From: Acidobacteriota bacterium
GTDB taxonomy: Bacteria > Acidobacteriota > UBA6911
DNA: 50,109 bases
Assembly: GCA_012729555.1 (NCBI GenBank)
Contig: JAAYCX010000047.1
Location: forward strand, 1-50,109
Direction: 5' to 3'
The position numbers and the translations under genes are program-made. The notes below the pieces were generated by a model. The model had not been told where the DNA came from. It made no database searches and saw only the letters and a program-made list of their open reading frames with translations. How positions within the stretch are numbered: the stretch's first letter is position 1; each line of letters starts with the position of its first letter. Of this stretch, positions 3,359 through 35,355 are shown in pieces.

Positions 3359-3972
3359 GTAAGCGGATATTCGACCTCGCCTTGGTGGTTCCCGCGCTCG
3401 TGGTTCTGTCGCCGTTGCTTTTGGCCCTGATGGTATTGAGCCGGGTGCTGCTGGGGCGGCCGGTGTTTTACCGTCAGGCGAGGCCGGGCCTGGATGGAAA
3501 GCCATTTTATATCTATAAATTCCGGACGATGACGGACGCCCGGAACCCCGACGGCGGGTTGTTACCCGACCGGGAGCGGCTGACGCGGTTCGGCCGGTTT
3601 TTGCGCAGCAGCAGCCTCGACGAGCTGCCGGAACTCTGGAACATCCTCAGGGGGGAGATGAGCTGGGTGGGGCCGCGGCCGCTGCTCGTGAAGTACCTGC
3701 CGCGCTATTCGGCGGAGCAGGCGCGGCGGCACGAGGTGAAGCCGGGGCTGACGGGGTGGGCGCAGGTCAATGGCCGCAACGCCATCGGCTGGGAGGAGCG
3801 GCTCAGGCTCGACGTCTGGTACGTCGATCACCGGTCGCTGGCTTTGGACGCGAAAATCCTGTTTTTGACCGTCTGGAAGGCCCTGCGGCGCGACGGCATC
3901 CAGCAGGAAGGGTACGCGACGATGCCGGAGTTCCTGGGATCGGAGCCGCCGCAGAAGGCGCGGCCGGGTTGA
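3349..3972 (+). CDS. PglC-like monotopic phosphoglycosyl transferase
   Basis: At 207 residues this is the size of Campylobacter PglC, the minimal form of the bacterial sugar transferase family. It should move a phospho-sugar from a UDP-sugar onto undecaprenyl phosphate, the first membrane step of glycan assembly. One hydrophobic segment at about residues 8-30 fits the re-entrant membrane helix. [20 protein letters not shown] follows, then the catalytic Asp-Glu pair D91-E92 in [13 protein letters not shown], then the WVGPRPLL and [14 protein letters not shown] signatures. GTG start at 3349, overlapping the end of the previous gene by 10 bases. The dehydratase, aminotransferase and acyltransferase further along suggest its substrate is a UDP-bacillosamine-type sugar. 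Confidence 0.92.
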
Positions 3973-4041: not shown

Positions 4042-5196
4042 ATGAGCCAGACTGTCGGCCGTCCGCGCATCTACCTGTCGCCCCCCAACCTGGACGGGCG
4101 GGAAAAGGAACTGATGCTCGCGGCCTTCGATTCGAACTGGATCACCACCATGGGGCCCCAGGTCGAGCTGTTCGAGCGGGAGATGTGCCTCGAGCTCGGA
4201 GTCGGGCACGCCGTGGCGCTCTCGAGCGGCACGGCCGGGCTGCACCTCGCGCTCATGATCCTGGGGGTCGGGCCCGGGGACGAGGTGATGTGCGCCGACC
4301 TGACCTTCGCGGCCAGCGTCAACGCCGTCAAGTACTGCGGCGCCCACCCCGTGCTCATCGACGCCGACCCGGCGACGTGGAACCTCGACCCCGGCCTCGT
4401 CGAGGACGAACTCCGCCGGCGGGCGCGCGCGGGGGACTCGATGCCCCGGGCGATCATGGCGGTCGACCTGTACGGGCAGTGCGCCGATTACGACGCCATC
4501 CTCGCCGTCGCCGGCCGGTACGGCGTCCCCGTCGTCGAGGACGCCGCGGAGGCGCTGGGGGCGGAGATGCGCGGCAGGCGGGCCGGGGCGTTCGGCGCGA
4601 TGGGCGTCCTCTCCTTCAACGGGAACAAGATCATCACCACCTCGGGCGGGGGGATGCTGGTCTCCGACGACGGGGCCTGCATCGAGCGGGCGCGCTACCT
4701 GGCGACCCAGGCGCGGGAGCCGGTGGTCCACTACCAGCACTCGGAAGTCGGGTACAACTACCGGCTGAGCAACATCCTGGCCGGCATCGGGCGGGGGCAG
4801 CTGGAGCGGCTCGGGGAAAAGGTCGATAAGAAGCGGGAGGTGAACCGGTACTACCGGGAGGCGCTCGGGCATCTCCCCGGGATCCGGTTCATGCCGGAGG
4901 CCCCTTACGGAAAATCGAACTGCTGGCTCACCGTCATCCTGATCGACCCGGACGCGTTCGGGACGGACCGGGAGGGGGTGCGGCTCGCGCTCGAGCGGGA
5001 GAACATCGAGTCGCGCCCCGTATGGAAGCCGATGCACCTGCAGCCCGCCTTCCGCGACTGCCGTTTCCTGGGCGGCGGCGTTGGGGAGGGCTTTTTCGAG
5101 CGGGGACTCTGCCTCCCCTCGGGAACCCGGTTGGAAGAGGGCGACCTCGAGCGGATCGTCGGGATCGTCGCCGGCGCCTGCGGGGTCCGTCCATGA
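4042..5196 (+). CDS. DegT/DnrJ/EryC1-family sugar aminotransferase (PglE-like)
   Basis: A PLP-dependent aminotransferase of about 384 residues that should convert a UDP-4-keto-6-deoxy sugar to the 4-amino sugar using glutamate. Family landmarks are ALSSGTAGLHLAL (phosphate binding), DLYGQCADYDAI, VEDAAEALGA (the Asp that contacts the pyridine nitrogen) and SFNGNKIITTSGGGM with the cofactor lysine K196, then YNYRLSNILAGIG. I prefer ATG 4042 because GGAAAG lies just upstream; ATG 4030 would add four residues. With the PglC-, PglD- and PglF-like genes nearby it fits the bacillosamine pathway. The next gene, an ACP, begins at or just after its stop. Confidence 0.93.
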   Translation: MSQTVGRPRIYLSPPNLDGREKELMLAAFDSNWITTMGPQVELFEREMCLELGVGHAVALSSGTAGLHLALMILGVGPGDEVMCADLTFAASVNAVKYCGAHPVLIDADPATWNLDPGLVEDELRRRARAGDSMPRAIMAVDLYGQCADYDAILAVAGRYGVPVVEDAAEALGAEMRGRRAGAFGAMGVLSFNGNKIITTSGGGMLVSDDGACIERARYLATQAREPVVHYQHSEVGYNYRLSNILAGIGRGQLERLGEKVDKKREVNRYYREALGHLPGIRFMPEAPYGKSNCWLTVILIDPDAFGTDREGVRLALERENIESRPVWKPMHLQPAFRDCRFLGGGVGEGFFERGLCLPSGTRLEEGDLERIVGIVAGACGVRP

Positions 5197-31771: not shown

Positions 31772-32494
31772 ATGTTTCCTTTGAAGGACGACAACCCGAC
31801 CCAAAGCACGCCCGTGGTCACGATCTCCCTGATCGCGGTCAACCTGGTCGTCTTCCTCTACCAGCTGTCCCTTCCCCCGGGATCGGCCGAACGGTTCATT
31901 TACCAGTACGGGAGCATCCCCGCGGTGGTGACCGGGCTCGGCCGGCTGTCGGCCGACCTGGCCGCCGTCCCCCCGCTCGCGAGCGTGCTGACCAGCATGT
32001 TCCTTCACGGCGGCTGGATGCACCTCGTCGGAAACATGTGGTTCCTCTGGATCTTCGGCAACAACATCGAGGAGGCGACGGGCCGTTTCCGGTTCGTCCT
32101 CTTTTACCTGGCGTGCGGCCTGGCGGCGGGAGCGGCCCACATCCTGGCCAACCCCGATTCGGTCATCCCCGCCATCGGCGCCAGCGGCGCCATCGGCGGC
32201 GTGCTGGGCGCCTACATCATGCTGTACCCCAGGGCGCGCGTGCATACCCTGATCTTTCTCTTCGTCTTCATCCGGGTCCTGTATCTCCCCGCCGGGGTCA
32301 TCCTGGGGTACTGGTTCGTTCTTCAGCTCCTCGGCGGCAGCACCACGGCGGGGGCGGCGGGCGGGGTGGCGTTCTGGGCCCATGTCGGCGGGTTCGTCGC
32401 GGGGGTGGTGTTGGTGGGGGCGTTCAAGAAAAGAAGCGTGAGGTTTTTCAACCCGCCCCATGGCGCGCCGCTGATGCGGGCGATGGGAGATTGA
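31772..32494 (+). CDS. Rhomboid-family intramembrane serine protease
   Basis: 240 residues with about six hydrophobic helices. It cleaves transmembrane substrates within the bilayer. The catalytic serine is S138 in the GASGAIGG motif and the histidine is H204 in WAHVGGFVAG. The GWMHLVGNMWFLWIFGNNIEEATG stretch provides the conserved helix 2 histidine/asparagine region. It is the short form without extra cytoplasmic domains. The ribosome site before ATG 31772 is weak (GCGAGCG). Likely substrates are unknown. Confidence 0.92.
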   Translation: MFPLKDDNPTQSTPVVTISLIAVNLVVFLYQLSLPPGSAERFIYQYGSIPAVVTGLGRLSADLAAVPPLASVLTSMFLHGGWMHLVGNMWFLWIFGNNIEEATGRFRFVLFYLACGLAAGAAHILANPDSVIPAIGASGAIGGVLGAYIMLYPRARVHTLIFLFVFIRVLYLPAGVILGYWFVLQLLGGSTTAGAAGGVAFWAHVGGFVAGVVLVGAFKKRSVRFFNPPHGAPLMRAMGD

Positions 32495-32916: not shown

Positions 32917-34572
32917 CTAGGCGTTGGCCAGCGCGGCTTCGAGGTCCGCCTCGACGGTCGTGATCGGCTTGATGTTGAACTTTTCCACCAGAACGTTGAG
33001 CACGGGCGGCGTGACGAAGGCCGGCAGAGTCGGGCCGAGACGGATGTTCCTGATCCCCAGGTGCAGGAGCGAGAGGAGGATGACGCACGCCTTCTGCTCG
33101 TACCAGGAGAGGATGAGCGACAGCGGCAGGTCGTTGACGCCGCAGCCGAAGGCCTCGGCCAGGGCCCCGGCCACCTTGATGGCCGAATAGGCGTCGTTGC
33201 ACTGGCCGCAGTCGAGCAGCCTGGGGATGCCGCCGATGTCGCCGAACTCCAGCTTGTTGAAGCGGTACTTGCCGCAGGCCAGGGTCAGGATGGCGCAGTC
33301 CTTCGGGACGGCCTCGGCGAACTCGGTGTAGTAGTTGCGCCCCGATTTGGCCCCGTCGCAGCCGCCGATGAGGAAGAAGTGGCGCAGCTGCCCCCCCTTG
33401 ACCGCCTCGATGACCTTGTCGGCGACCCCCAGGATGGCGTTGTGGCCGAAGCCCACGAGAATCGTCTTTTCCGGTTCGTCCGCTTCGAACCCCGGCTCGG
33501 CCAGGGCGGCCGCGATGACGGGGGAGAAGTCCCGATCGGAGATGTGGGTGACCCCGGGCCAGGCGACCAGGCCGCAGGTGAAGATGCGGCCCTTGTAGGA
33601 GTCGCGCGGGGCCTGGATGCAATTGGTGGTCATGAGAATGGCGCCCGGGAAGGCGGCGAATTCCTTCGCCTGGTCCTGCCAGGCCCCGCCGTAGTTCCCG
33701 ACGAGGTGGGGGAATTTCTTGAGTTCGGGGTAGCCGTGGGCCGGAAGCATCTCGCCGTGCGTGTAGACGTTGATCCCCTTCCCGCTGGTCTGCTCGAGCA
33801 GGGCGGCCAGGTCCTTGAGGTCATGGCCCGATACCAGGATCGCCTTCCCCTTGACCGGGGTGACGCGGACCGGGGTCGGGACGGGGTCGCCAAAGGTGCC
33901 GGTGTGGACCGCATCGAGCATCCCCATCACGGAGAGGTTGACCTCTCCGCATTTCAGGTTCAGTTCCAGGAGCCGGCCCAGGTCGAGGGCGGGCCGGGCT
34001 ATGTAGTCCATGGCCTCATGGATGAAGGCGTAGACCTTGTCGTCCTCCTTTCCCAGGATGTAGGCGTGATCCACGTAAGCGGCCATCCCCTTCAGGCCGT
34101 AGGTCAGCAGTTCTCGGAGCCCGGTCAGGTCGTCCCCCAGCGACGCCTTCGCGGCCGCGATGCCGATCCCCGCCGCCTGGTCGAGGAGGCCGTCGCGGGT
34201 TTGGGCCGGCGTCCATGCGGCCGGCCCCTGCACGATCTCGGGGGTTTTCCCCTCCTTTTTGCAGGCGTCCTCGTACAGGGCCCGGGTCGCGTCCTTCACG
34301 CCCGCCCCTTTGCGGATCAGGGCTTCCACCCGCGCGGCGTCGAAGTTGACGTTCGTGACCGTGGTGAAGAGGGCCTCGACCACGAAGGTATCGGCCTGCG
34401 GGGTCTTCATCCCGCACTGTCGCGCCCGGACGGCATACTGGCTGATCCCCTTGGCGGCGTACAGGAGGAGATCCTGCAACGCCGCCGTGACCGGGTCTTT
34501 CCCGCAAACGCCCACCTTCTCGCAACCGCGGCCGGCGGCCGTCTGTTCACATTGGTAGCAAAACATGTTCAT
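32917..34572 (-). CDS. hcp: Hybrid cluster protein (hydroxylamine reductase family)
   Basis: 551 residues. It carries a hybrid Fe-S-O cluster and is linked to nitric oxide and hydroxylamine detoxification. The N-terminal cysteines are C5-x2-C8-x8-C17-x5-C23, the spacing of class I Hcp, which binds a [4Fe-4S] cluster and is typical of strict anaerobes. Hybrid-cluster ligand regions include [62 protein letters not shown] and [20 protein letters not shown] 34572 follows GGGAG. It is transcribed away from a Crp/Fnr regulator that is probably its activator, and ends at a strong terminator. Confidence 0.96.
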
Positions 34573-34616
34573 AGTCTCGTCTCCCGGAAATTATTGGTTG
34601 TCCGCGTACGATCGAT

Positions 34617-34622
34617 AGCATA
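34617..34622 (-). promoter_or_regulatory. Predicted -10 element of the hcp promoter
   Basis: TATGCT on the minus strand. It predicts transcription starting at about 34610, a 38-base leader before the hcp ATG. There is no good -35. The FNR-type palindrome at 34645-34658 is centred exactly 41.5 bases upstream of this start, the position from which Crp/Fnr proteins activate class II promoters. Confidence 0.6.
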
Positions 34623-34644
34623 CTTTGAGCTGTGCGGGACGACA

Positions 34645-34658
34645 TTGACCCAGATCAA
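34645..34658. promoter_or_regulatory. FNR-type operator between hcp and the Crp/Fnr gene
   Basis: TTGACCCAGATCAA is a dyad with TTGA/TCAA half-sites. It differs from the FNR consensus (TTGAT-N4-ATCAA) at one base of ten. The adjacent regulator carries the matching E-x2-S-R recognition helix, so it is likely to bind here, activating hcp and perhaps controlling its own gene. Confidence 0.75.
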
Positions 34659-34704
34659 GAAATCGCCATTTTTCCTGTCCTGGCGTCCGGCACGGGGGGG
34701 GCTC

Positions 34705-35355
34705 ATGGATGTTTACAGCATACTCGATCAGGCACGGTTTTTCGACGGCATTTCCGAGGCCAGCAAGAGAATCCTGACCCGGTTCTGCCGGCCGCTCGAG
34801 CGCCCCCGGCAGTCGGTGCTGTTCCGGGAGGGGGAGACGGGGGAGGCGATGTACCTGCTGGCGCGGGGGCGCATCTCGCTGGGCAAGGTGTCGGAAGCGG
34901 GGGACGAAACCGTCATCAAGGTGCTCAAGCCGGGCGAGGCCTTCGCGGAAGTGGTCCTGTTCGAACGGAGGGTGTACCCGGTGACGGCGGTGGCGCTCAC
35001 CGACGTCCTCGTGATGCGGATCCTGCGGCGCGACATGCTCGACCTGCTCGGCCAGGAGGATTTCCGCAACGATTTCATCGCCATGCTCCTTCGCAAGCAG
35101 CGGTACCTCACCGACCGGATCCAGCACCTGACGCGCCACGATGTCGCCGAGCGGCTGCGGGCGTTTCTGGCGGAGCAGTACGGGGAGAGGCTCGACATCC
35201 GGGTGGAAATGAACAAGAAACAGCTGGCCGCCGCCATCGGCGCCACCCCGGAGACCCTGTCGCGGCTGCTTCAGGACCTGAAGCGGCGCGGGCTCCTCTC
35301 CTGGAAGCAGAGCGAGATCAGGGTTTCCCCCCGATTCTGGAAGCCGGATGCGTGA
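34705..35355 (+). CDS. Crp/Fnr-family transcriptional regulator (HcpR/Dnr-like)
   Basis: 216 residues: a cyclic-nucleotide-binding-type beta-barrel (ETGEAMYLLARGRISLGKV, LKPGEAFAEVVLFERRVYPVTAVAL), a dimerisation helix, and a winged helix-turn-helix (NKKQLAAAIGATPETLSRLLQDLKRRGLL). The recognition helix has E183-x2-S186-R187, the FNR-type code for TTGA half-sites. It lacks the FNR N-terminal cysteine cluster, so oxygen sensing by an Fe-S centre is unlikely. Nitric oxide or redox sensing, as in HcpR or Dnr, fits the divergent hcp. ATG 34705 starts the domain; the long upstream frame is shadow of hcp. The 3' end overlaps the convergent MATE gene by 38 bases. Confidence 0.88.
   Translation: MDVYSILDQARFFDGISEASKRILTRFCRPLERPRQSVLFREGETGEAMYLLARGRISLGKVSEAGDETVIKVLKPGEAFAEVVLFERRVYPVTAVALTDVLVMRILRRDMLDLLGQEDFRNDFIAMLLRKQRYLTDRIQHLTRHDVAERLRAFLAEQYGERLDIRVEMNKKQLAAAIGATPETLSRLLQDLKRRGLLSWKQSEIRVSPRFWKPDA

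Follow-up and report, generated by a model that had tools for sequence, protein, structure and literature searches.

E. coli FNR combines a TTGAT-N4-ATCAA box, an E-x2-S-R helix and a class II site at −41.5 with the four cysteines of a [4Fe-4S] oxygen sensor. DNR and NnrR of denitrifiers have a box of the TTGAT-N4-ATCAA type, NO-related targets (DNR regulons are nir/nor/nos) and no cysteine cluster. HcpR1 of the delta-proteobacteria was predicted computationally by Rodionov et al. in 2004–2005, with an FNR-like palindrome, ATTTGACCNNGGTCAAAT or wyTTGACnnnnGTCAArw, and a target list of hcp paralogues, frdX, yccM and hemerythrins (PMC545781, PMC1274295). HcpR1 lacks the FNR cysteines, and its gene often adjoins hcp. 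CRP Arg180, which is tied to the G of TGTGA, is replaced in HcpR1 by Ser or Pro, a change tied to TTGAC half-sites, while Glu181 and Arg185 are kept (PMC545781, PMC1274295). The P. gingivalis HcpR/HcpR2 group (PDB 9day) also controls hcp, has the Crp fold and responds to NO, but its motif is GTAACnnnnGTTAC; the P. gingivalis protein holds haem through Met68 and perhaps His149 (PMC12750200).

The window analysed here, a 50,109-nucleotide stretch that constitutes contig C47 of an Acidobacteriota genome (3.83 Mb, 98.9% complete), carries a further, well-supported instance of the HcpR system already known, not a system of a new kind. Very likely, its regulator is an HcpR1-type Crp/Fnr activator that acts from a class II position on boxed hcp and partner genes, probably in response to NO. 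The hcp gene, which serves in defence against nitric oxide, and the regulator gene are divergent, with start codons at 34572 (minus) and 34705 (plus) and a 132-bp gap between them. Direct reading of the sequence bears out the coordinates originally given for the box and for the −10 element TATGCT. The features of the locus are as follows.

32917..34572, minus strand: hcp, full-length hybrid cluster protein of 551 aa (hydroxylamine reductase profile NCBIfam PRK05290, 814 bits; TIGR01703, 754 bits; Pfam Prismane)
34581..34585, minus strand: Shine-Dalgarno GGGAG of hcp, read from the sequence
34590..34595, minus strand: alternative −10-like hexamer AATAAT, 59 bp from the box centre, rejected as the main −10
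34609..34612, minus strand: predicted hcp transcription start; 34610 would give −41.5, with purines at 34609 and 34612
34617..34622, minus strand: −10 element TATGCT of hcp, centred 32 bp from the box centre
34645..34658, no strand: predicted regulator box, TTGACCCAGATCAA as numbered and TTGATCTGGGTCAA as read on the hcp strand, centred on 34651.5, from sequence and conservation in orthologous intergenic regions
34705..35355, plus strand: HcpR-type Crp/Fnr regulator of 216 aa, with a cNMP-binding domain and a Crp HTH; AlphaFold2 model with the CRP fold
35248..35286, plus strand: recognition helix, residues 182–194 (P182 E183 T L S186 R187 ...), a helix in the model and conserved in the family

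The same hcp-regulator arrangement is found in a congener (L053, Acidobacteria bacterium), whose regulator is 94% identical, and the two genes are also divergent in other relatives. The box fits the FNR-like HcpR1 palindrome TTGACnnnnGTCAA, as do the 49 sites tallied below and the second hcp box of the same genome. Unlike HcpR1, the system here is hosted by the Acidobacteriota, and the fifth base of the half-site is C or T, whereas in HcpR1 it is mostly C. The HcpR1-group placement, tested indirectly, is suggested by the motif, the residues, the regulon and four relatives from Deltaproteobacteria/Syntrophaceae (L088, L097, L100, L128; 43–49% identity) that have hcp nearby and TTGAC-N4-GTCAA boxes.

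The box itself is a real, confirmed observation. A perfect copy lies in 7 of 7 hcp-adjacent orthologous regions of Acidobacteriota, although the flanks have diverged. When 42 hcp upstream regions from several phyla were reduced to 37 distinct ones, 33 contained a perfect TTGA-N6-TCAA, against 0.27 expected from first-order Markov shuffles. Such conservation and recurrence rule out a chance palindrome. Base counts over 49 sites, TTGA[C 33/T 16]..[A 34/G 15]TCAA, give the consensus TTGA[C/T]N4[A/G]TCAA. Within its own genome, the pattern TTGAN6TCAA has 19 perfect matches (11 for a reversed-pattern control), and the narrower TTGAYCNNGRTCAA occurs exactly six times, four of them ahead of the two hcp genes, a ferredoxin gene and a polyferredoxin gene. 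Perfect boxes on contigs C65 and C89 fall inside predicted genes, and those on C10, C72 and C88 have no related gene alongside. Allowing one mismatch gives 58 boxes in the genome, exact ones included; one of these, at 31829 in the window, falls in a rhomboid reading frame.

The distance from box to −10 element is as conserved as a class II activator would need. The original prediction placed the box at exactly −41.5 of hcp, and the class II position stands: the spacing is 32 bp in the window, and a −10 at 31–32 bp is conserved across phyla. The solid fact is this spacing, because the start base is unmapped; by the convention that transcription starts 6 nt past the hexamer, 32 bp converts to −41.5 and 31 bp to −40.5, and the last half base is convention. 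On the hcp strand, position 34610 reads C, and the nearest purines are 34609 (G, −42.5) and 34612 (A, −39.5). Hexamers matching TATAAT in at least four of six positions were found at 31 bp in 15 of 33 hcp sites and at 32 bp in 11, with at most 5 at every other distance from 14 to 61 bp. Under a stricter definition, with position 2 fixed as A and position 6 as T, 26 of the 33 hcp sites had a −10-like hexamer 31 or 32 bp away, compared with 1.7 in shuffles. As the shuffles kept base composition and not relatedness, a set thinned of similar sequences was also scored, and it gave 17 of 24 against 1.3. For ferredoxin genes, which have a wider spread of spacings (29–38 bp), the count was 10 of 16 against 0.9. 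In all three sets, every one of the 5000 shuffles fell short of the observed count. Relative to the HcpR1 description, the class II spacing shown here over many genomes is a point of difference.

The rest of the hcp promoter fits dependence on an activator. Its −35 is poor (3/6 by inspection), and a simple promoter scan of the window did not report the hcp −10, as expected of an activator-dependent promoter with no good −35. The hexamer AATAAT (34595–34590) was rejected as the hcp −10: a spacing of 59 bp is not a general feature of the related promoters, and its start would hit the Shine-Dalgarno. Crp/Fnr proteins are also able to repress, and for the D. desulfuricans protein called HcpR2 a model exists in which NO destroys or changes a cofactor and the repressor leaves the hcp promoter (PMC5701242). 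A repressor of that kind is improbable here: its site ought to cover part of the −10 or the start, but the box is found upstream of a −10 that has good spacing and no good −35, and 26 of 33 hcp promoters have it at the class II position. The regulator also has no cysteines for a cluster. The box position and the poor −35 instead suggest activation.

The nearly symmetric box is also only ~53 bp from the start of the regulator gene, so that it might mainly drive that gene. This is very improbable given that no −10 lies at 31–32 bp toward the regulator, that L039 and L040, regulators that do not adjoin hcp, lack the box, and that hcp is boxed in 8 of 8 close copies, including two (L136 and L138) where no regulator adjoins it. 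The box would thus serve hcp and probably does not drive the regulator's own gene.

The predicted DNA-contacting side of the regulator is nearly invariant in its family. The original prediction took E183-x2-S186-R187 as the code for TTGA half-sites. The residues are present, but as a code they are insufficient, because a paralogue (C80) has R-E-T-L-S-R and hence the same E-x2-S-R; the informative one is Pro182, the counterpart of Arg180 in CRP. P182, E183, S186 and R187 correspond to CRP positions 180, 181, 184 and 185, and P182, E183 and R187 match the HcpR1 description. Across 81 family members, P182 is kept in 80 (Ser in one) and E183, S186 and R187 in all 81. The 80 relatives, which represent the near part of the family only, were found via conserved peptide patterns of the sensor domain and not via the recognition helix, so helix conservation was not built in by the search. 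As the original prediction held, the regulator lacks the FNR cysteine cluster, a property shared with HcpR1: it has a single Cys (C28) and two His (H141, H145), and 15 of the 81 members have no Cys at all.

The genome has three Crp/Fnr proteins, and the box could in principle be read by another of them, with the adjacency of regulator and hcp accidental. The motif shared by C80 (ARETLSR) leaves room for this, but in C80 and C25 (R-E-T-V-T-R) the residue at CRP position 180 is Arg, which is associated with TGTGA half-sites (PMC1274295) and predicts such sites for both. The window regulator's family, by comparison, accompanies hcp or frdX plus the box across phyla, and a different reader is therefore hardly credible. 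The C80 paralogue (L002, 1399–2109) contains seven cysteines in an arrangement unlike the FNR cluster. A fourth match to HTH_Crp_2 (C44) looks like an ArsR-type repressor and was set aside as not Crp/Fnr.

Comparisons of the whole protein were less telling. The modelled structure has a generic CRP fold with M. tuberculosis CRP and GlxR as best matches, a comparison that does not discriminate among Crp/Fnr types. P. aeruginosa DNR (3dkw) was among the better profile matches of the regulator, not the best. P. gingivalis HcpR (9day) is distant and no closer than the CRPs, scoring 62 bits by profile where M. tuberculosis CRP scores 99, and the motif of its group is unlike the window box. A tblastn search against plasmids found distant Crp/Fnr proteins only, none of them suitable as an HcpR or DNR reference.

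The original prediction had proposed scanning the genome for the palindrome. The scan and comparison with other genomes yield a small predicted regulon of the same target kinds as that of HcpR1: two hcp genes, an FrdX-like ferredoxin and a YccM/NapH-like polyferredoxin. The second hcp (L025, contig C69, 1879–3519), the only other hcp of the genome, is 46% identical to the first; its box at 3609–3622 is fully symmetric (TTGACCCGGGTCAA), with TAATAT 31 bp away, and both family genomes that carry the gene have it boxed. The ferredoxin is a two-cluster protein of 281 aa, and all 8 of the intact family copies that were tested are boxed. The polyferredoxin gene (L023, contig C13, 4919–5983) has the box TTGACCCGGATCAA at 4875–4888 and TATCCT 32 bp away; the same boxed arrangement was found in one congener (L163), and the other congeners tested had no box. 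Across 13 family genomes, regulator and ferredoxin were both present in eight and both absent in four, and one, which is 81% complete, had the ferredoxin only (Fisher p = 0.007). In the congener G009 (L153, 81% complete), the ferredoxin is boxed, the regulator was not found, and the sole hcp is distant and has no box.

In other phyla, where a regulator has the box upstream but does not lie beside hcp, the divergent gene usually encodes the same ferredoxin or a hemerythrin/PAS protein. The boxed ferredoxin is the divergent neighbour in L068, L092, L095, L110, L113, L121, L122 and L124. Additional targets may exist among the Spirochaetes, where boxed regulators adjoin a gene for a transporter/cNMP-domain fusion (L118) and genes for PAS/hemerythrin-type proteins (L125, L127). 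The window genome also encodes NrfA, from which NO might arise as a by-product. The perfect-match scan of the genome found no box at nrfA or at the gene for a NorB-like NO reductase. The latter (L023, contig C13, 7140–9413) lies a few kb from the polyferredoxin box and has none of its own. The box type, missing cysteine cluster and NO-related targets recall DNR and NnrR; in contrast to the nir/nor/nos regulons of DNR, the boxed genes here are hcp, ferredoxin and polyferredoxin.

The locus had been predicted to be an HcpR/Dnr-like nitrosative-stress switch in this lineage. Its HcpR type is well supported, as are the box, spacing, regulator and regulon, and both the regulon and the studied HcpR proteins suggest NO as the signal. 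The restriction to one lineage does not hold: the system is spread across several phyla, its type was predicted in 2004–2005 (PMC545781, PMC1274295), and the HcpR-type clade extends over Acidobacteriota, Verrucomicrobia/Kiritimatiellales, Lentisphaerae, Fibrobacteres, Spirochaetes and delta-proteobacteria. A literature search found no treatment of hcpR in Acidobacteria, an absence that is not proof.

How the signal is perceived is less clear than how the DNA is read. In the alignment of 81 members, no column keeps His, Met or Cys throughout; other residues, such as Pro, Tyr or Lys, could serve as ligands. Met129 comes closest, kept in 69 of 81 members although the window protein has Leu there, followed by Met127 (51) and Cys28 (49). 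H141 and H145 of the window regulator are not conserved, and the Met68/His149 haem site of P. gingivalis HcpR has no counterpart among conserved His/Met/Cys columns. The same regulator, box and class II activation could therefore answer to redox state, nitrite, hydroxylamine or another small ligand instead of NO, and a regulon of iron-sulphur electron carriers and hemerythrins would fit redox or anaerobiosis as well. We consider such a signal unlikely, though worth keeping in mind: hcp-frdX regulons are induced by NO or nitrite where tested (PMC12750200, PMC5701242), the regulator has no FNR cysteine cluster, and P. gingivalis HcpR binds haem despite a poorly conserved second ligand (PMC12750200). 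Since the family conserves none of the residues His, Met and Cys that might ligate haem, non-haem chemistry is possible. Tentatively, and with more doubt than confidence, a clade with a rigid DNA side (P-E-x2-S-R, TTGA box and class II spacing) may sense nitrosative stress without a haem like that of P. gingivalis HcpR.

In the NO-responsive activator model, nitrosative stress, most likely NO, would change the sensor domain of the regulator. The dimer would then bind the box, each half-site being read by E183, S186 and R187, with P182 where CRP has its arginine. From its class II position it would bring RNA polymerase to the adjoining promoter, whose −35 is poor. Levels of Hcp and of its partners in electron transfer would rise, and NO would be removed. 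The model poses a puzzle, namely how regulators of this family can sense NO when no haem ligand (His/Met/Cys) is conserved among them. The class II geometry shared across phyla turns the computational HcpR prediction of 2004–2005 into a precise mechanistic statement, that of an activator at a fixed 31–32 bp. For anaerobic Acidobacteriota, most of which are available as assembled genomes only, the system provides a concrete, testable nitrosative-stress regulon.
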